Source: a virus. Taken from it: a stretch of 31,583 nt of DNA. This document shows positions 2,419-12,950 of the stretch, one piece after another (positions within the stretch are counted from its first letter, which is position 1; the number at the start of each line of letters is the position of its first letter). Both the position numbers and the translations under genes were made by a program. The DNA lies in IMG/VR virus record IMGVR_UViG_3300032242_001847, positions 1 through 31,583 of that record. One strand, 5' to 3'. The notes beneath the pieces were generated by a model, which was not told the DNA's origin, searched no databases, and saw only the letters and a list, made by a program, of their open reading frames with translations.

Positions 2419-2894
2419 GTCGTGAGCAGCGCATGATCGTTGCATTGTCAGCAATCGTCATTGTTCTTGCTGTTGACTTGCTATGTGTCAAAGCGGCAAA
2501 CGGGACGCCAGCTCGACTCCCAGAAAACTCAACAGATCGCATTGCTCACATTGCGCGAACAATGCCAGTCACGAGCCAATGGCAATCAGTGCTTGAGACG
2601 TACACTGGCGGCAGTTACGGAGTTGCGCACGTCAACGCACTTTGGCCGCGATCGCCTCACGGCGCAAAGCGCAAAACGATTATCGGAGCAGCCATTCATC
2701 ATCACGTGCCCGCAAGACTGCTGCTCGGCGTTTGGGGCGCAGAATCAGGCTTCGGCGCATACGCTTGCAACTTTGGTTTGACCGGATACTTTCCCGGCAC
2801 TGGCACAAGCGGCAGCTTTTGGAAAGACGCGCACCTCGCCGCTGATCTGTTCGATCGGCTTTACCGCTCACGCTATGGCCGACGCGCGTTCTAA
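2415..2894 (+). CDS. Membrane-anchored lytic transglycosylase-like (lysozyme-fold) protein
   Basis: The 159-residue protein starts with a hydrophobic helix at residues 7-28 (signal anchor or signal peptide) followed by an SLT/lysozyme-like domain. The candidate catalytic glutamate is E110 in LLGVWGAESGFG, preceded by the helix HHHVPARLL typical of transglycosylases and followed by a Gly/Thr-rich turn and an AADLFDRLY helix. It would cleave peptidoglycan outside the membrane. It lies far from the main lysis cassette at 21478-23296, so a role in superinfection control, DNA entry or late lysis is possible. The start overlaps the previous stop (ATGA). Confidence 0.72.
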   Translation: MSREQRMIVALSAIVIVLAVDLLCVKAANGTPARLPENSTDRIAHIARTMPVTSQWQSVLETYTGGSYGVAHVNALWPRSPHGAKRKTIIGAAIHHHVPARLLLGVWGAESGFGAYACNFGLTGYFPGTGTSGSFWKDAHLAADLFDRLYRSRYGRRAF

Positions 2895-3114
2895 ACCATA
2901 CGAGCCGACAGCTCGAGTACCGAGACCGCTCTCGCTTTGGATTGAAAAAGCAACGGGACGCGTCGTGTCAATCAACTCAATTTTCAACACTGGATCTGAA
3001 GCCGGAGAGCCCTGGACTGATCTTGTAAACGTTCAGCACGGATACAAAGCGTCTAGCTGCTGGAACGTCAAACTCTCAGAATTTTTCGAGCTGTTCGAAG
3101 TTTCAGGCTGTTAG
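2875..3114 (+). CDS. Small unknown protein (79 aa)
   Basis: The frame begins at ATG 2875 inside the end of the transglycosylase gene (20-base overlap). The product is soluble and mixed alpha/beta, with an ATGRVVSINSIF hairpin and a C-terminal LSEFFELFEV segment. No family recognised. The ribosome site is weak, so expression may depend on coupling to the upstream gene. It is the last gene before the structured intergenic region. Confidence 0.55.
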   Translation: MADARSKPYEPTARVPRPLSLWIEKATGRVVSINSIFNTGSEAGEPWTDLVNVQHGYKASSCWNVKLSEFFELFEVSGC

Positions 3115-3124
3115 AAAGTTCCGT

Positions 3125-3146
3125 CCGACTCACCAACTAGAGTCGG
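3125..3146 (+). repeat. Hairpin 1 of the 3115-3262 intergenic region
   Basis: CCGACTC (3125-3131) and GAGTCGG (3140-3146) are perfect inverted repeats around an eight-base loop, 11 bases after the stop at 3114. No T-run follows, so it is not a typical intrinsic terminator. It may be an operator, an RNA stability element or part of a larger structured element with the next two hairpins. Confidence 0.7.
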
Positions 3147-3150
3147 CGAC

Positions 3151-3189
3151 AATGACTGTACGCTGCTCGAAAAGCAGCTCGCAGTCATT
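3151..3189 (+). repeat. Hairpin 2: two-tier inverted repeat
   Basis: AATGACTG (3151-3158) pairs perfectly with CAGTCATT (3182-3189), and nested inside GCTGCT (3162-3167) pairs with AGCAGC (3173-3178) around a CGAAA loop. Three bases on each side form an internal loop. The arrangement is too regular for chance in an intergenic stretch of 148 bases, and it begins five bases after hairpin 1. Confidence 0.8.
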
Positions 3190-3200
3190 TCGCGTGCAGC

Positions 3201-3260
3201 AAGCCCCCGTTTCAAATAGCCAGCTTTCACGACTGGCATACCTATTTAGCTTGGGGGCTT
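3201..3260 (+). promoter_or_regulatory. Hairpin 3: three-tier structure that sequesters a ribosome site
   Basis: AAGCCCCC (3201-3208) pairs perfectly with GGGGGCTT (3253-3260). Inside are AAATA (3214-3218) with TATTT (3243-3247) and GCCAG (3219-3223) with CTGGC (3233-3237), with a five-base internal loop on each side and a five-base bulge. The right arm contains the only purine-rich stretch before the ATG at 3263, so folding would hide the ribosome site. This suggests translational control of the following gene, or a structured DNA/RNA element with another role. Confidence 0.6.
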
Positions 3261-3262
3261 TC

Positions 3263-3508
3263 ATGCTTAGCGATCAACGCGGTCTCGATTGGTGCTCGGT
3301 CAACCAAGAAATCGTGAAGCTCAAGCAGCTTCAACCTCGAGTCAGTTGTTCCGGCTGGAAATATCACTGCATATGCCCTGAACACGCCAACGTGACCGGC
3401 GGCATTCTCAGTCAATATCGGCGACTACTTGAAGCGGGCGATTCCAACAATGCCGCTGTCGTACGCAAAGAAATACGACACCTGCAGAAAACGCTAGGAC
3501 GCAACTGA
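3263..3508 (+). CDS. Small unknown Cys/His-containing protein (81 aa)
   Basis: The start is taken as ATG 3263, five bases after a GGGGG stretch; the same frame extends up to ATG 3152, but that part runs through two hairpins and looks non-coding. The product contains WCSVNQEI, then CSGWKYHCICPEH with three Cys and two His that could bind a metal, then a basic helix (ILSQYRRLLEAG ... RKEIRHLQKTL). No family recognised. The stop overlaps the next ATG (TGATG). Confidence 0.6.
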   Translation: MLSDQRGLDWCSVNQEIVKLKQLQPRVSCSGWKYHCICPEHANVTGGILSQYRRLLEAGDSNNAAVVRKEIRHLQKTLGRN

Positions 3509-3780
3509 TGTCAGACGAGGTTCGGGGGCGAACCATTTATGAAAAAGCCCTCGACCTCATTGACGAAGGCATCTCAGTAGCAATCGTCCCGATCTGCTCA
3601 GCCGACAGAGACAAGATCGGACTGTACGCACTCACAGTTGATCTTGACGTCTATCCGGAAATGAAGAAAGACGCGTACAGCTCGCACATTCGAGAACGCG
3701 AAACGTTCGCGCTCGGCATGACTGTCATCACGTCCGAATCAGCTCAAGACAAGAACTATCGTCATCGGCGCGTGCCCTAA
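3508..3780 (+). CDS. Small unknown protein (90 aa)
   Basis: I do not recognise this acidic, soluble alpha/beta protein. It has a central beta-rich core (ISVAIVPICSADRDKIGLYA) and charged ends. The start overlaps the preceding stop, so the pair is probably co-translated. The gene is followed by the hairpin-rich leader of the tail-fibre genes. Confidence 0.6.
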   Translation: MSDEVRGRTIYEKALDLIDEGISVAIVPICSADRDKIGLYALTVDLDVYPEMKKDAYSSHIRERETFALGMTVITSESAQDKNYRHRRVP

Positions 3781-3809
3781 ATCTTCGCCAGCGCTTCGAT
3801 CATCGCGGC

Positions 3810-3857
3810 GAATGGGGCGGCACGGCTGCCATTCCCCCGAGGCACGTCGTGCCGCCC
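3810..3857 (+). promoter_or_regulatory. Competing inverted repeats (attenuator-like leader) before the tail-fibre genes
   Basis: Three overlapping pairings are visible: GAATGG (3810-3815) with CCATTC (3829-3834); GGGCGGCACG (3815-3824) with CGTGCCGCCC (3848-3857), a perfect 10-base stem; and GGCAC (3841-3845) with GTGCC (3849-3853). The last two exclude each other. No T-run follows. The element sits 12 bases before the AGGAG ribosome site of the next gene. It could end transcription of the left genes or switch between two RNA folds. Confidence 0.6.
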
Positions 3858-3883
3858 AACCATTTACACAGGAGCTTTGAAAC

Positions 3884-4231
3884 GTGGACGCAACCGAATA
3901 CAACCTGCGTCGCCACTACCTCGACAGCTTGAACTTGAACGTCGTCTTCACACAAGACGACGGTGTGACTCCGATCAACCTGACCGGATACACGGCGACT
4001 TTCAACGTTTACGACCGCAAAGGCGGTTCGATTGTTGCAACGCTCACAAACGGTTCTGGCATCACGGTTACTGCAGCAGCGGGCAACATTCAGGTTGATC
4101 GCAGCCCAGCTCAGATCACAGCTTGGAAGCTCAGCGATGGTAAAGGCGCATACGACCTCTCGATCGCATCATCGTCCGGCACGACAAATCGTGTGCTCTT
4201 GAAGGGCACGCTTGAAATCACTCGTTCATGA
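3884..4231 (+). CDS. Baseplate/fibre-associated Ig-like beta protein (BppU N-terminal type)
   Basis: The 115-residue protein is all-beta, with the pattern of the BppU-type baseplate domain: VVFTQDDGVTPINLTGYTAT, a central VDRSPAQITAW segment, then GAYDLSIAS and a final VLLKGTLEI strand. The GTG start at 3884 has AGGAG at 3870-3874. Its stop overlaps the ATG of the fibre gene (ATGA), so it probably docks the fibre to the tail. Family assignment rests on motif shape only. Confidence 0.7.
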   Translation: MDATEYNLRRHYLDSLNLNVVFTQDDGVTPINLTGYTATFNVYDRKGGSIVATLTNGSGITVTAAAGNIQVDRSPAQITAWKLSDGKGAYDLSIASSSGTTNRVLLKGTLEITRS

Positions 4232-6504
4232 CGCTTGTCAAGGTTGAAGAAACTGTTCTCGGTCTCAGGATCGGCAACGACACGGTCGTCGTCAGTCCAA
4301 CGAGCACTGAAACAATCATCAAACTCGCAGCAAGCGGGCCTCAAGGCCCAGCGGGAACAACGCTGACCGCCGGTGGCACGTGGACTGCCCAGGCTTATTC
4401 AAAAGACACGTTCGTCGCGTATCAAGGCTCAAGTTACGTTTCAACGTCCGCAACCGCTGCGGGCGACGTTCCCGGCAGCTCGTCAAAATGGATGTTGCTT
4501 GCAGCGCAAGGGTCAACCGGCGCAAAAGGCGACACGGGCTCGCAAGGCATTCAAGGCGTCAAAGGTGACACCGGAAGTCAAGGCTTGCAAGGTCTGCAAG
4601 GTGTTCAAGGCGTCAAAGGCGACACGGGCACGACGGGCAATGGAATTGCATCAGTCGCCTGGACATCGTCAACCGGAGGTTCAAGCGCTGGCATCGCTGG
4701 CGCGACCGACACTTACACGATCACGTATACGAGCGGATCGACCGCGACGTTTACTGTCAAGAACGGTGCGAACGGCACCAATGGCATCAACGGCACCAAC
4801 GGAACGAACGGTACTAACGGCAGAAGCGTTTCAAGCATTAGTCGCACCTCCGGCACAGGAGCCGCTGGCACGTCTGACACGTTCACAATCAGCTATTCAG
4901 ATTCAACAACTTCGACGTTCTCGGTTTACAACGGTGCAAACGGCACCAATGGGACAAACGGCACAGCCGGTCGCGGAATCACGTCAATCGCTCGAACAAA
5001 TGGCACTGGCGCTGCTGGAACGACCGACACGTACACGATCAGCTATAGCGATTCGACAACTTCAACGTTTGCAGTAGTCAACGGCTCAAACGGCACGAAC
5101 GGCACTAACGGTCGAGCGGTTTCAACAATCAGCAAGACAAGTACGTCAGGCAACGTTGACACGTACACAATTACGTATTCAGATTCAACGACTTCAACTT
5201 TCACGGTCACGAACGGAACCAACGGCGCAAACGGATCAAACGGCACCAACGGTCGCGGAGTCAGCTCAATCAGTCGCACGTCTGGCACCGGAGCTGCAGG
5301 CACAACAGACACTTACACGATTACCTATTCGGACAGCACAACTTCGACGTTCACAGTCGTCAACGGATCGAACGGCACGAACGGCACGAACGGCACCAAC
5401 GGCACGAACGGCACCAACGGCGCTCAGGGCGTAAGCGGCATCGCTGGCTTGACTTACATTGGCGCATATTCCAGCTCGACAACGTACTCGACCAATCAAG
5501 CGGTCAGCGTCGCAGGCTCAACAACAACCTATTACGTCAGCTTGATTAACAGCAACCTGAATCACGATCCGACAACGACGTCAGGTTATTGGGCTCAGAT
5601 CGGCTCAGGTCTCTCGATCAACACGAGCACCGGCGCATTGCAAGCAAACATTGCAAGCACAAGCTCAACCGCCGCTGGAACATCAACGGAACTCATCAGC
5701 GGCGCTGACAAACGAATTGTCAGCAGCACAAGCACGCTGAATCTGGGCGGTCTTGGCAGCACAAACCTTGTCATGACCAACGGCACCGGAGTGTTCCTGA
5801 GCGGCGCTGCAGTCAACATTCCAGGAAACGCCAGCTATAACAACGTGGCAGTCGACAGCTTCGCTTCGTCTCAATCGACAACAGCGGGCGTCATCTTCAA
5901 AGGCAACAGCGGCAGCCCAGCAAACCCGAACACGGGCGCAACAGGCTTACTCGTCCCAGCAATGGCGACAACGACTTACACGATTGCAACCGGACTCAAA
6001 GCAAACAGATTCTTCACGCCGATCGCATTGACCGTCTCCGGAGTTCGCATCTACGTCGCAACAGCACCGTCAGTCGCATGGAACCTATACGCCGCGATCT
6101 TCGACGAGACCGGCACTAGCAGGCTCATTTGGTCAAACACGACAACGCTTCCGACATCAGGCACGACAGCATCAGCCAACGTGAACATTCCATTCGCGAA
6201 CTACCTGAGCGGCACATCATCGACCACACTGCTACCCGGCTCAACGTACTACGTTGCAGTCGGATTCACAGGCGGCACAGGCGGCACTGTTGGCGGCAAC
6301 AACATTCAAGGCTTGAATGCTTGGGGCATGGCCGGTGGCAACTCAAGCATCAACAACTACGCCGACACAAAAGGCGTTTATTCAACCGGCGCACAACTGT
6401 TCTCGCACGGCACATACAACCTTTCAGCCATTGGCAGCGCAACAGGCGGCGCATCAACAACCGGCACAAACAGCGCGGCGCAGGTTCAATGCCTCATCTA
6501 CTGA
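4228..6504 (+). CDS. Collagen-like receptor-binding tail fibre with repeated modules
   Basis: This 758-residue protein is probably a trimeric fibre or adhesin. Residues 1-30 look like an attachment domain. A carbohydrate-binding-like segment follows (WTAQAYSKDTFVAYQGSSYV), then a short collagen-like G-X-Y stretch (GAKGDTGSQGIQG). Between about 4636 and 5421 come five modules of roughly 45-60 residues, each a beta segment (TDTYTISYSDSTTSTF) followed by Gly-Thr-Asn repeats. A second carbohydrate-binding-like domain (YIGAYSSSTTYSTNQAV) and a Ser/Thr/Gly-rich C-terminal domain complete it. Unusually, it lies upstream of the terminase genes instead of after the tail hub, which suggests an exchangeable host-range cassette. 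Confidence 0.88.
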   Translation: MTLVKVEETVLGLRIGNDTVVVSPTSTETIIKLAASGPQGPAGTTLTAGGTWTAQAYSKDTFVAYQGSSYVSTSATAAGDVPGSSSKWMLLAAQGSTGAKGDTGSQGIQGVKGDTGSQGLQGLQGVQGVKGDTGTTGNGIASVAWTSSTGGSSAGIAGATDTYTITYTSGSTATFTVKNGANGTNGINGTNGTNGTNGRSVSSISRTSGTGAAGTSDTFTISYSDSTTSTFSVYNGANGTNGTNGTAGRGITSIARTNGTGAAGTTDTYTISYSDSTTSTFAVVNGSNGTNGTNGRAVSTISKTSTSGNVDTYTITYSDSTTSTFTVTNGTNGANGSNGTNGRGVSSISRTSGTGAAGTTDTYTITYSDSTTSTFTVVNGSNGTNGTNGTNGTNGTNGAQGVSGIAGLTYIGAYSSSTTYSTNQAVSVAGSTTTYYVSLINSNLNHDPTTTSGYWAQIGSGLSINTSTGALQANIASTSSTAAGTSTELISGADKRIVSSTSTLNLGGLGSTNLVMTNGTGVFLSGAAVNIPGNASYNNVAVDSFASSQSTTAGVIFKGNSGSPANPNTGATGLLVPAMATTTYTIATGLKANRFFTPIALTVSGVRIYVATAPSVAWNLYAAIFDETGTSRLIWSNTTTLPTSGTTASANVNIPFANYLSGTSSTTLLPGSTYYVAVGFTGGTGGTVGGNNIQGLNAWGMAGGNSSINNYADTKGVYSTGAQLFSHGTYNLSAIGSATGGASTTGTNSAAQVQCLIY
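4636..5421 (+). repeat. Five in-frame fibre modules ending in a 9-bp tandem array
   Basis: Modules begin near 4636, 4819, 4969, 5110 and 5250 and share the TDTYTI-YSDSTTSTF core at protein and DNA level. The last ends in five back-to-back copies of AACGGCACG/C at 5371-5415 plus a partial copy. Because the unit is 9 bases, copy-number slippage keeps the frame and only changes fibre length. Confidence 0.9.
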
Positions 6505-6902
6505 CCTACGGCGGCGACGGTCTAACCGCATACCGTCGAACCGAAGACAACGGCGAAGCACTCGAACTTGTCGAAACAATTAGCGGTGGCACAATCGGTC
6601 TGATCCGCTGGCACACATCGCCAGACAATCCACTGCACACAATCCTCACACAGTTCACAATCGACGAGCCCTGGCAAGCACGAGGCTACGGTCGATGGAA
6701 CGGCGGCGCACTACTTGACGAGCTCGAGGCGCAAGGGCAAACACGGATCATCGGAGTCGGCATGACTAACGAGCAGCCGATCGTCAGCAGAGGCGCAGAC
6801 GACACGCCAAACGGAGTTGAGCTTGACCTCACAGATCAAAGCAATCCGTTCCGACAATGGGTCAGAGCAACATCGACACCGACCCGACCGCCGCTCCAAT
6901 GA
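6489..6902 (+). CDS. Possible GNAT-fold protein downstream of the fibre
   Basis: The 137-residue frame starts at ATG 6489, overlapping the fibre gene by 16 bases; upstream extension of the frame only shadows the fibre gene. Residues around 31-90 resemble the GNAT acetyltransferase core: a GLIRWH strand, ILTQFTIDEPW strand, then QARGYGRWNGGALLDELEAQG, which matches the Q/R-x-x-G-x-G/A acetyl-CoA loop and following helix. The rest is short for a full GNAT domain and unlike it. It could modify the fibre or a host component, or be a fibre chaperone. The match is suggestive only. Confidence 0.6.
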   Translation: MPHLLTYGGDGLTAYRRTEDNGEALELVETISGGTIGLIRWHTSPDNPLHTILTQFTIDEPWQARGYGRWNGGALLDELEAQGQTRIIGVGMTNEQPIVSRGADDTPNGVELDLTDQSNPFRQWVRATSTPTRPPLQ

Positions 6903-7219
6903 GAACGTTATGCCTCAACTGCGGCACGCTGATACCAACGAACACCGGCAGTCGATGCTCAGCGTGCAAACCAAAGCGCCAGCGTGCAACGGGACAAGGG
7001 CGCGCGTATCGCACTGCAGCTTGGCAACGCATCAGAGCTGCCGCGATTAGCAGAGCCGGACACATGTGCACCAGATGCGGCACACGAGATCAATTGCAAG
7101 TGCATCACATCCTTCCACTGGCAGACGGTGGCACTCACGATCAACACAACCTTCAGGTTGTCTGCAGATCTTGCCATCCGATCGTAGAAGCTGAACACAA
7201 AGCATCACGACGGGCATAG
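6899..7219 (+). CDS. HNH endonuclease of the DNA-packaging module
   Basis: The 106-residue protein has an N-terminal zinc knuckle (C5, C8, C20, C23) and an HNH core with C57/C60 and C89/C92 as structural zinc ligands and the H69-H70, N84, H93 catalytic set (VHHILPLADGG ... HNL ... CRSCH). ATG 6899 overlaps the previous stop (ATGA); an in-frame ATG at 6857 is less likely. HNH proteins next to terminase genes are known to assist cos cleavage and packaging (HK97 gp74 type), which fits its place just before the terminase genes. Confidence 0.92.
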   Translation: MRTLCLNCGTLIPTNTGSRCSACKPKRQRATGQGRAYRTAAWQRIRAAAISRAGHMCTRCGTRDQLQVHHILPLADGGTHDQHNLQVVCRSCHPIVEAEHKASRRA

Positions 7220-9195: not shown

Positions 9196-10398
9196 ATGGG
9201 CCTATTTGACCGACTGTCGAAGCGTGCAAACGATCCGATTGTCGAATTCGTCAACGAAGAGGTTGTTTTTCTCGAAGGCCCGTATTCCGGCGAACGCGTC
9301 GATGCTAAATCAAGCATGTCGCTCGTTCCCGTTTGGGCTTGCGTTCAGTTGATTTCAGGCGCTCTTGCAAGCCTTCCGATTCGCGTTTATCGCACTGATG
9401 CAAACGGCACGAAGTACGAATCGCCAAATCATCGAACTGCGAAGCTGCTTGCAAATCCGAACCCGTACATGAGCGGTGACGAGCTGATCGAGTGCGCTTC
9501 CAGTCACCTGCAGCTTTGGGGAAACGCGTTTCTCTTCAAGGTCAAGAACGGTGGTCAGGTTGACGAGCTTTGGCCGCTCGATCCTTCCCGCATCAAGGTC
9601 ACGCAGAGCAAGGAAGGTACGCCTCTCTACGTGCTTGACGGCAAGAAAGGCCCGTACACGCAAGACACAATTTTGCACATTCGCGGCTTGTCATGGGATG
9701 GTCTTGTCGGCCTAAGCCCAATTCAGCAGGCTTATCAAACTTTGGGCAATTACAAGGCTGCAGAGCGCTTTCAGGGTCGTTTCTGGGCGAACAATGCAAC
9801 ACCGGGCGGTGTTCTGACACATCCGTCCAGATTGAGCCCAGATGCCGCGAAACGGCTTCGTGCACAGTGGACTTCAGCTCACGCTGGAAACAACAGCTCA
9901 AGCACTGCCATTCTCGAAGAGGGAATGAGTTACGTTCCGCTAACGCTTCCGATCGCAGACGCTCGCTTGCTCGAGTCAATCGAAGCAAACGTGCTTGATT
10001 GCGCACGGCTTTGGCAGGTTCCAGCTTCAATGCTGCAAGCCAGTCCCGGCAAACAAGGCTTGCACTACACAAGCACTGAAATGGAATACGAACATTTCGT
10101 GCGTTTCACGCTTCGCCGCTGGCTTTCACGCATCGAAAAGAGCCTGCAGCGCGACCGAGACCTTTTCTCACCCGTCGGTCTCGGCAGTCAATTCACGGTC
10201 GCGTTTGACACAAGCGATTTGACAAGAGGCGACAACAAGACGATTGCCGACATCAACATTGCCCTTTTCAAAGAGGGAATCATTACCAAAGACGAGGTTC
10301 GAGCCGAATTGGGCCGTCAACCTCTCGACCCTGCTCTCGATCAGGCACCTGCACTCGCAATGCCGACCGAGACTCTTCCAACACAGACGCAGTCCTGA
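9196..10398 (+). CDS. Portal protein (HK97 type)
   Basis: The 400-residue protein matches the HK97-family portal: VPVWACVQLISGALASLPIR near residues 36-55, HLQLWGNAFLF, a stem/wing region (GLSPIQQAYQTLGNYKAAERF), and the LTRGDNKTIADINIALFKEGIITKDEVRAELG motif shared by these portals (split here as seen at about 340-375). It forms the dodecameric DNA gate at the head vertex. A strong AAGGGAG site precedes the ATG, ten bases after terL. Confidence 0.95.
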   Translation: MGLFDRLSKRANDPIVEFVNEEVVFLEGPYSGERVDAKSSMSLVPVWACVQLISGALASLPIRVYRTDANGTKYESPNHRTAKLLANPNPYMSGDELIECASSHLQLWGNAFLFKVKNGGQVDELWPLDPSRIKVTQSKEGTPLYVLDGKKGPYTQDTILHIRGLSWDGLVGLSPIQQAYQTLGNYKAAERFQGRFWANNATPGGVLTHPSRLSPDAAKRLRAQWTSAHAGNNSSSTAILEEGMSYVPLTLPIADARLLESIEANVLDCARLWQVPASMLQASPGKQGLHYTSTEMEYEHFVRFTLRRWLSRIEKSLQRDRDLFSPVGLGSQFTVAFDTSDLTRGDNKTIADINIALFKEGIITKDEVRAELGRQPLDPALDQAPALAMPTETLPTQTQS

Positions 10399-10418
10399 TC
10401 CGAAGGAGAACGTTTCGA

Positions 10419-11729
10419 ATGTCAGTCAGCGAACCAATTGAGCCCGACGAGGGCACCGCAGAAGATGCCGTCGTCGATCGTGCCGACTGCATTGAAGAGC
10501 TTTCCGAAGCGCTTGCGGATCTCATCAGCTTCGTTCATCGAGCACACGCTGCTCACTGGAATGTGAAAGGCCCAGCATTCGGGGCATATCACGCACTCTT
10601 TGAATCGGTCTACACGTCCGGTCAAGAGCACGTCGATGGACTTGCTGAACAATTGCTCCGATTGGACACTGACGCACCAAACTCGCTCGCTGAAATCGTT
10701 CAACGCGCAACCATTCAGCCAGGGCCGCTCAACAGCGACGATCCTCAAGTGCTCGCAACTGACCTTCGTGACCTCAACGACATGCTGCTCGACAGTCTCG
10801 AAGACGCATATGACTGCGCCAATGAGCTTGACGAGACGATCGGCACCGCCAATTTCCTTGCTGAGATCATTGACGATCAACGCAAATGGCGCTGGCAACT
10901 TACGCGCTCGATCAGCAACGCTGCTGAAGCTCCGGTCGTCGCGCCAATGAATCCGCCAGAAGGATCAGAGATTGAAGAGGAAGACGATATGCCAATGCGT
11001 GCAATGCGAGTTGTTGACGCGGTCGAGGTTCGAAAGAATCCTGAAATCGTCGCAGAGTTGCGCTCAGGCGATGTTGCAGAACGGCGCGTCGCTCCGGCAA
11101 CAACTGAAATTCGCACCAATGAAGACGGATCATGGACGCTCGTTGGACACGCAGCGGTGTTTGAGGGAAAGAACGGTGAAGGAAGAGCTGACCTGGGCTC
11201 GTTTACCGAATCCATTCAAAGGGGCGCATTCAGGCGCATTTTGAAGCAAGACGGGCTTGACGTTCGAGCCTTGTTCAATCACGATCCAAACCTCGTCCTC
11301 GGTCGCACACCGGGCACGCTCACATTGCGCGAAGATCCGAAAGGCCTTGCCTATGAAGTGAACGTCGCTCCGACGACCGCAGGCAACGACCTGCGCATCT
11401 TGCTTGAGCGCGGCGACGTCACACAATCCTCATTTGCGTTCCGTGTTGGCGCTCAGGATTGGGAAGATATGCCCGACGGCACACTTCATCGCACAATCAC
11501 AGATTTCAAAGATCTGCTTGATGTTTCGCCGGTGACGTATCCGGCATACGGAAACACGACTGCAGGAGTCCGTTCAGAAACTTCATCAACCGACAAGTCA
11601 GAGCACGAGCCAGGGGGCACCGCCACGCAGCCCGAAGCTCAGGCTGACTCGTCGTCCCGGCGGGCCGATGAAGACGACGCGCATCGACTCAGATTGCGTC
11701 GTCAGCGCTTGCGCGACCGCGCAGCGTAA
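10419..11729 (+). CDS. Fusion of a Dps/ferritin-like domain with an HK97-type prohead protease
   Basis: Residues 20-170 form a complete Dps-like four-helix domain with the HWNVKGPAF signature. The five ferroxidase positions are H46, H58, E62, D73 and E77, spaced 12, 4, 11 and 4 residues, exactly as in E. coli Dps (H51, H63, D67, D78, E82), with Glu for the third. A Pro/Glu-rich acidic linker (about 171-190) follows. Residues 205-380 are an S78-type prohead protease: GHAAVF, H288 in LFNHDP, the probable nucleophile S338 in QSSFAF, and D368 in LLDVSPVTYPAY. The C-terminal tail is Ser/Asp/Arg-rich. The gene lies between portal and capsid genes, the normal protease position. The frame is unbroken. 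An internal ATG with a ribosome site could make protease alone. Confidence 0.93.
   Translation: MSVSEPIEPDEGTAEDAVVDRADCIEELSEALADLISFVHRAHAAHWNVKGPAFGAYHALFESVYTSGQEHVDGLAEQLLRLDTDAPNSLAEIVQRATIQPGPLNSDDPQVLATDLRDLNDMLLDSLEDAYDCANELDETIGTANFLAEIIDDQRKWRWQLTRSISNAAEAPVVAPMNPPEGSEIEEEDDMPMRAMRVVDAVEVRKNPEIVAELRSGDVAERRVAPATTEIRTNEDGSWTLVGHAAVFEGKNGEGRADLGSFTESIQRGAFRRILKQDGLDVRALFNHDPNLVLGRTPGTLTLREDPKGLAYEVNVAPTTAGNDLRILLERGDVTQSSFAFRVGAQDWEDMPDGTLHRTITDFKDLLDVSPVTYPAYGNTTAGVRSETSSTDKSEHEPGGTATQPEAQADSSSRRADEDDAHRLRLRRQRLRDRAA
10977..10991 (+). promoter_or_regulatory. Possible internal ribosome site and start for free prohead protease
   Basis: GAGGAAG at 10977-10983 precedes an in-frame ATG at 10989 (residue 191 of the fusion). 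Starting here would give a 246-residue protease without the Dps domain, close to the usual size of stand-alone prohead proteases. The purine run also encodes the acidic linker (EEED), so it may be a by-product of coding. Confidence 0.4.
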
Positions 11730-11771: not shown

Positions 11772-12950
11772 ATGTCTTTGGACAAGATCACCGAGCTTCG
11801 CCATAAGGCAGCTCATCAGCTCGCAGAGATGCGCAGCATTGTTGACGAGAATGAAACGCTCACAGCAGAGCAGGCAGCAGAGTACGACCGTCGTGAGGCT
11901 AACCTCGACGAGCTGAACGCTCAGGTTGAGCGTCTTGAAAAGCTGGCCGGTATTGCACCTGAGCCAACTTTCGCAGAGGGTCGCGGTATGGCTCTTGGCG
12001 ACCGTGATGATGTTGAGATCGGCGAGACTGTTGCTCCTGAGTCAACTGATTCAGCCGCAATGATGGATCGTTACCTCCGTTCGAAGGGCACCGATGCAGA
12101 AGCTCGCGCTTCAATGCTCGTTGGTACTTCAAACGCTGGTGGTTCATGGGTTCCGCAGATCTGGCAGAGCAATCTGATTCAGTCGCTGGTTCTCAGCACC
12201 AAGCTGTTTGACGTTGCCAATGTTCTTGAGACGAGCAACGGTCAGATCATCAACATCCCAACGCAGACTGCGGATGAGCAGCTTGCGCTTGTGGCCGAAG
12301 AGGGTACCTACACGAACCCGAATCCGACTACTGGCGTCGCTCAGCTGAACGCGTACAAGTACGGCGCGATCGTCAAGGTAAGTGAGGAGCTCCTTGCTGA
12401 TGCAGCGTTCGATATCAGCGCTTACATTCAGCGTCAGGCCGGTCGCTATCTCGGCAACCAAATTGGCAAGGTTCTTGCCGTTGGTACCGGCTCAAGTCAG
12501 CCGCAGGGCATCTCAAACGCGACTGTCGGAGTTACTGCGGCAGGCACGACTGCAACCACATCCGATGAAATTTTCGATACTCAGCATTCGCTGTCGGCGC
12601 CTTACCGCGCTAACGCTGCTTGGTTCGTCAATGACACTTGGCTCAAGGGCATTCGTAAGCTGAAGACAACGTACGGTGATTACATCCTTCAGCCTGGTCT
12701 TCAGGCTGGCGCACCGAACACGCTGCTCGGCTCACCCGTTTACATTGAGCAGCTTGACGCTCCTGCCACTGGCAAGGTTCCGGCTGTTTACGGTGATCCT
12801 CAGTCATACGTGATCCGTCGCACACCGCTCAACATCACAGTGCTCAGGGAGCGCTTTGCTGACGCCGGTGACATCGGATTCAAGGTCAACGTTCGCGTTG
12901 ACGGACGCATTGCCGACACCAACGGCATGAAGGCCTTCAAGCAGGCCTAG
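11772..12950 (+). CDS. Major capsid protein (HK97 fold, with N-terminal scaffold segment)
   Basis: The 392-residue protein begins with a coiled-coil delta/scaffold segment (residues 1-65: LRHKAAHQLAEM ... LNAQVERLEKLAG) that the protease normally removes, then an HK97-fold capsid domain: GGSWVPQIWQSNLIQSLV, the E-loop region IINIPTQTADEQ, the spine helix DISAYIQRQAGRYLGNQIG and the A-domain LLGSPVYIEQLD. AAAGGAG lies seven bases before the ATG. The gene uses CAG for Gln almost only, plus GGT and CGT, unlike most neighbours, consistent with very high expression. A strong hairpin follows it. Confidence 0.95.
   Translation: MSLDKITELRHKAAHQLAEMRSIVDENETLTAEQAAEYDRREANLDELNAQVERLEKLAGIAPEPTFAEGRGMALGDRDDVEIGETVAPESTDSAAMMDRYLRSKGTDAEARASMLVGTSNAGGSWVPQIWQSNLIQSLVLSTKLFDVANVLETSNGQIINIPTQTADEQLALVAEEGTYTNPNPTTGVAQLNAYKYGAIVKVSEELLADAAFDISAYIQRQAGRYLGNQIGKVLAVGTGSSQPQGISNATVGVTAAGTTATTSDEIFDTQHSLSAPYRANAAWFVNDTWLKGIRKLKTTYGDYILQPGLQAGAPNTLLGSPVYIEQLDAPATGKVPAVYGDPQSYVIRRTPLNITVLRERFADAGDIGFKVNVRVDGRIADTNGMKAFKQA

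Follow-up and report, generated by a model that had tools for sequence, protein, structure and literature searches.

In phages of the HK97 type, the prohead protease becomes incorporated into the prohead; a member of the family is expected to cut itself and the capsid protein there. For context on this enzyme (Peptidase_S78/TIGR01543), see PMC10275583 and PMC3185693. A ferritin-like cargo inside an HK97-fold shell is known from encapsulins, in one case, from Pyrococcus furiosus, by fusion to the shell itself, and the Dps-like protein IMEF is a further encapsulin cargo (PMC11202242). Phages also carry genes of this superfamily: ferritin-domain genes of freshwater phages have been proposed as a defence against reactive oxygen species (PMC6802176), and a gut-phage Dps has been described in terms of oxygen tolerance (PMC8008677). 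The sections of these two papers that deal with phage-borne Dps/ferritin and oxidative stress mention neither a fusion to the prohead protease nor targeting to the capsid. Our literature search found no paper with a relevant connection between Dps or ferritin and a prohead protease or head maturation protease.

The locus studied here joins these two proteins. Within the window, i.e., the whole stretch of 31,583 nucleotides that was analysed, a single frame encodes a Dps-type domain followed by an HK97-type (S78) prohead protease. The preliminary description had proposed this fusion from the sequence; Pfam matches both parts, and the boundaries given for the gene were correct. The features of the region are:

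9196–10398, plus strand: portal protein gene (context; profile matches)
10403–10408, plus strand: AAGGAG, Shine-Dalgarno-like, 10 nt 5' of the ATG of the fusion gene
10419–11729, plus strand: Dps–prohead protease fusion gene, open frame of 436 amino acids plus stop
10476–10928, plus strand: Dps domain, residues 20–170, four-helix bundle with a short BC helix (residues 90–96)
10554–10556, plus strand: codon of H46, ferroxidase-ligand position, invariant, inside the search pattern
10590–10592, plus strand: codon of H58, ferroxidase-ligand position, invariant, outside the search pattern
10602–10604, plus strand: codon of E62, fifth ligand position, not conserved in the family
10635–10637, plus strand: codon of D73, ferroxidase-ligand position, invariant
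10647–10649, plus strand: codon of E77, ferroxidase-ligand position, invariant
10929–11078, plus strand: linker, residues 171–220, acidic, of low model confidence and probably flexible
10977–10980, plus strand: GAGG, with an in-frame ATG at 10989–10991, candidate internal start for the protease alone
11079–11582, plus strand: S78 prohead protease domain, residues 221–388, with H288 at 11280, S338 at 11430 and D368 at 11520
11649–11723, plus strand: predicted C-terminal helix, residues 411–435 (full-length model)
11772–12950, plus strand: HK97-type major capsid protein gene (context; profile matches)

The fusion gene sits between the portal and major capsid genes with the terminase nearby (Pfam, PHROGs), and its product resembles the usual HK97-type prohead protease in profile, catalytic residues and this portal–capsid position. 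Unlike that enzyme, it bears a Dps domain, and its relatives add Hva1_TUDOR, HAD phosphatase-like and phrog_2859 domains. The likeness to encapsulins is one of working principle, a ferritin-superfamily protein inside an HK97-fold shell, sometimes by fusion. Encapsulins are defined by such a shell without phage packaging genes and by cargo that has a targeting peptide or is fused to the shell, whereas profile searches found terminase, portal and tail genes all in the window; here the fusion is to the protease and not to the shell, and the phage domain is of the Dps type, unlike the encapsulated-ferritin fold.

Elsewhere in the window, a tyrosine-type phage integrase is encoded at 658–1734, so the phage may be temperate. 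A collagen-repeat, tail-fibre-like gene (4228–6504) lies upstream of the terminase and away from the tail genes, and an HNH endonuclease gene (6857–7219) stands immediately 5' of the terminase genes, an arrangement common in HK97-like phages. Scans of the window for tRNA genes and for Rfam families gave no match.

The assignment of the N-terminal domain was examined with profiles and with a structural model. Pfam Ferritin matched residues 25–165 (E = 2.6e-17, 63.5 bits, cut-off 24.5), and the best PHROGs family was the Dps-like phrog_3636; the NCBIfam Dps equivalog scored 44 bits, below its cut-off of 114. An AF2 monomer model built on 58 relatives (mean pLDDT 90.3) had four long helices, with a short one lying between helices B and C, a predicted layout that is the Dps pattern. 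Its closest solved structures in a PDB search were Dps chains (VIA Z ~20–22 across ~145–155 residues), and both approaches bear out the Dps-like character claimed for this domain. The bacterial proteins of Vibrio cholerae (3iq1), Pseudomonas aeruginosa (8ff9) and Thermosynechococcus (2c41) share with it the four-helix bundle, the BC helix and the ligand positions occupied by H46, H58, D73 and E77 (TM-score ~0.78/0.87). In contrast to bacterial Dps, the phage domain is fused to a protease in a head operon, is strongly acidic and has, across the family, mostly lost the fifth ligand.

All five residues named in the preliminary description as ferroxidase ligands (H46, H58, E62, D73 and E77) are present in the window with the spacing given there, and they align to the ligands of solved Dps chains, in which the ferroxidase site (His, His, Asp/Glu, Asp, Glu) is shared between subunits. 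Conservation was assessed in the non-truncated sequences from the best 80 matches per scan (n = 241). H46, H58, D73 and E77 were invariant in 241 of 241 sequences, and since the last three lie outside the search patterns, their invariance is not a selection effect. Position 62, in contrast, ranked 99 among 143 columns in conservation, was acidic in only 18 of the 241 sequences and was mostly Q, L, G or N. The full set of five residues is therefore present in the window, but only four of them are conserved family-wide, and a five-ligand site as a family trait is ruled out. Metal binding may well survive without the fifth acid, because solved Dps sites require one or two histidines plus a bridging glutamate (PMC11202242). 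The absence of this acid from most of the family may weaken or change the ferroxidase activity. Where position 62 is not acidic, most relatives carry E or D at position 66 (T66 in the window, 10614–10616), one helix turn further on; an acid occurs there in 42 of 50 representatives, and the window reverses this pattern with E62 and T66. The acid at 66 may be a shifted or compensating ligand, with a weak link to the loss at 62.

Iron oxidation and storage characterize Dps proteins, and DNA binding through a basic tail is not universal in the Dps family. The net charge of the phage domain is −18 in the window and −8 to −20 in the family (mean −13). Because the domain is so acidic and has no lysine-rich tail, DNA binding or coating is unlikely, and the DNA protection that had been proposed for it is unlikely to work by this route. 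Dps proteins that protect without binding DNA are known, going by the title of 1o9r.

The C-terminal part was matched by Peptidase_S78 (PF04586) at residues 230–388 (E = 3.6e-34, 118.7 bits, cut-off 21), by TIGR01543 (NCBIfam; 91.8 bits, cut-off 59) and by the head maturation protease family phrog_80. The proposed catalytic residues H288, S338 and D368 are all present. H288 and S338 were invariant in the proteins of 56 relatives, and position 368, read from the sequences, is E in many of them. The full-length model consists of two confident domains, a C-terminal helix and a low-confidence linker, in which residues 171–195 mostly have pLDDT below 50.

Scanning viral contigs with profiles gave hundreds of matching stretches, and we read the 80 best from each scan. 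Two independent contigs provided early examples: L002 carries the same fusion (query P0001; 64% identity, residues 8–422), and L003 was found with the Dps part as query. In the first census of these best matches, Dps and S78 shared one frame at 147 of 156 loci; the other nine were contigs that end inside the frame. The search for the fusion beyond the window thus turned up many phage contigs, and L002, L003 and the 147 loci, as independent contigs, rule out an assembly error or chance joining. Taken together, all sets comprised 253 loci, corresponding to ~182 distinct stretches when single contigs listed under two ids are allowed for. Among these, again within the best 80 matches per scan, 143 stretches had Dps before the protease, two (L075 and L248) had the protease before Dps, and 13 had a third layout in which Dps and an acidic, coiled tail come after a divergent S78 domain. 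One stretch (L305) carried Dps in another head protein, 11 had free-standing Dps genes and 12 were cut by the contig end. The local profile missed the S78 domain of the third layout, which nevertheless passed the Pfam cut-off in each of the six proteins scanned.

The Dps-first proteins vary further. They may bear an extra N-terminal phrog_2859-type domain, and some include a HAD phosphatase-like domain or, between Dps and protease, a Hva1_TUDOR domain; the linker, ~44 to 283 residues long, may itself contain additional domains. In L075 (3633–5486), a phrog_2859-like domain (RHxVDK...WGGD type), recognized there by eye, also forms the C-terminus of the portal protein, and it is the N-terminus of the Dps–protease in L002 (2392–2740), as in most relatives. 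Judged from these sequences, it appears to be a mobile domain of the head module. In L115 (2103–4439), L124, L135 and L151, the HAD phosphatase-like domain precedes Dps and protease in one frame, with matches to Acid_phosphat_B and to the polynucleotide-kinase family phrog_415. The prohead protease thus seems to bear several enzyme domains. The L305 protein (2807–5824, 1006 amino acids) combines a phrog_2859 domain, Dps and a Zeta-toxin-type kinase, and matches a minor head protein family.

Such fusions seem to be in UniProt already under the automatic name 'Prohead protease': in a structure search, A0A6J7WPK9 (763 amino acids) and A0A6J7WIS1 (432 amino acids), both from 'uncultured Caudovirales phage', aligned to the full model over 401–429 columns and, by this alignment, look like the same fusion. 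The INPHARED records of cultured phages matched the protease 524 times and Dps, weakly, 19 times, and no match spanned the fusion. An actinophage had been assumed in the preliminary description. The only two fusion copies in genome bins fell into different phyla, one in an Actinomycetota bin and one in a Betaproteobacteria bin, and we rejected a host assignment on this basis. The freshwater-phage literature and the contig names suggest calling these phages 'lake-type'.

The fused genes belong to the head operon and the free-standing ones do not. Among the best 80 matches per scan, the portal gene was directly upstream at 155 of the 168 Dps-first loci with enough flank, and the capsid gene directly downstream at 158 of 160. 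The capsid gene also came next at all three protease-first loci with room, and in the third layout the portal gene lies ~0.8 kb upstream and a capsid-like ORF follows in L317. For the free-standing Dps genes among these best matches, portal or capsid adjoined in none of the ten with room. Both domains are under purifying selection (pN/pS 0.12–0.35 for Dps, 0.22–0.43 for the protease), which in four of five comparisons with the window was at least as strong on Dps as on the protease; L004 was the exception. In the Dps tree, the architectures require at least eight changes, where the minimum possible is four. In the protease tree, the window clade stands among unfused proteases, separate from the large Dps-first clades. 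A single Dps-first origin was recovered in 0% of the bootstrap trees of the protease, but the AU test did not reject it (p = 0.23). This tree suggests that the Dps-first fusion arose several times, and the differing domain orders by themselves imply more than one joining event.

Our favoured reading, which we consider as likely as not, is that the protease takes a Dps module that binds metal with it into the prohead, and that this module detoxifies iron and peroxide there, close to the packaged DNA. The protease domain would serve as the address, since S78 proteases are built into the interior of the HK97-type prohead as it assembles, and the Dps domain would enter the head along with it. If it survives in the virion, its metal site (two histidines, one aspartate and one glutamate) would bind ferrous iron and probably oxidize it with oxygen or peroxide. 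This chemistry, rather than any coating of the DNA, would curb Fenton damage to the packaged DNA or, if Dps is ejected, to the cell just infected, to the benefit of the phage. That the fusion recurs in different orders adds weight to the carriage of Dps into the capsid. The strongest argument for delivery is that head proteins have been fused repeatedly while the same phage Dps family also occurs free outside the head operon. Against delivery, the protease and its attachments may be broken down or ejected before the head is filled with DNA, nested starts may yield most of the protease without Dps, and each subunit of a putative Dps dodecamer would bear a 25-kDa protease.

A structural role is rather unlikely, in our view. 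Here, Dps would be an oligomerization module, dimeric or dodecameric, that clusters the protease and nucleates or fills the prohead core like a scaffold, with metal needed for folding or irrelevant. Dps domains self-assemble as 12-subunit cages (PMC11202242), the ORF list of the window contains no separate scaffold gene between the protease and capsid genes, and the acidic, coiled tails of the third layout resemble scaffold. However, the invariance of four metal ligands across very different sequences exceeds what an oligomer needs, and most S78 proteases function without a Dps module, the S78 loci in genome bins being unfused in 78 of 80 cases.

Alternatively, Dps may act against reactive oxygen species in the infected cell, with the fusion serving co-expression and internal starts supplying Dps-free protease. 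In the window as well as in L002 and L003, the GAGG lies eight bases before the linker ATG, a distance kept despite a one-codon difference in linker length, and in many relatives a second motif with an ATG falls 17–18 codons ahead of the protease. AAGGAG/GAGGAG-type motifs at fixed spacing precede 28 of 94 Dps-start ATGs, compared with 18 expected from synonymous codons, and 17 of 117 protease-start ATGs, compared with 9.3 expected, a modest excess in counts that are not independent, as they come from related sequences. Outside these two starts, AGGAG-type motifs showed no excess over the synonymous-codon expectation. Nested products, with free protease made by internal initiation, are plausible from these motifs, and the linker ATG with its GAGG could supply free protease instead of the linker cutting proposed earlier. 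Free-standing phage Dps genes also fit a role in the cell. Nevertheless, this explanation does not account for why head proteins alone were fused, repeatedly and in both orders, or why the frame has stayed open, and the reverse-order and third-layout proteins cannot free the protease by an internal start. We regard it as decidedly unlikely.

That Dps senses the iron or redox state and so times the activity of the attached protease is very improbable: the covalent link and the invariant metal ligands would suit such a switch, but a linker of so variable a length, with other domains inserted and an order that is reversed in some proteins, fits poorly with tight allosteric coupling. An artefact or a decayed, functionless passenger domain is scarcely credible, since only the lost fifth ligand speaks for it, whereas the fusion occurs on independent contigs, recurs, keeps invariant residues and is under purifying selection.

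The family of Dps–protease fusions is large. We know of no tailed phage shown to have a virion-borne defence against iron and peroxide. If delivery by the protease is correct and Dps enters the head, these virions would own one, the prohead protease would be a delivery vehicle for enzyme domains, and the system would be a phage parallel to the encapsulins with ferritin-like cargo in HK97-fold shells. Tentatively, the prohead protease may have been turned repeatedly, in several lineages of tailed phages, into a carrier that loads the virion with a functional mini-ferritin and further enzyme domains, an internal antioxidant system that would shield the genome in sunlit water rich in peroxide or inside a freshly infected cell.
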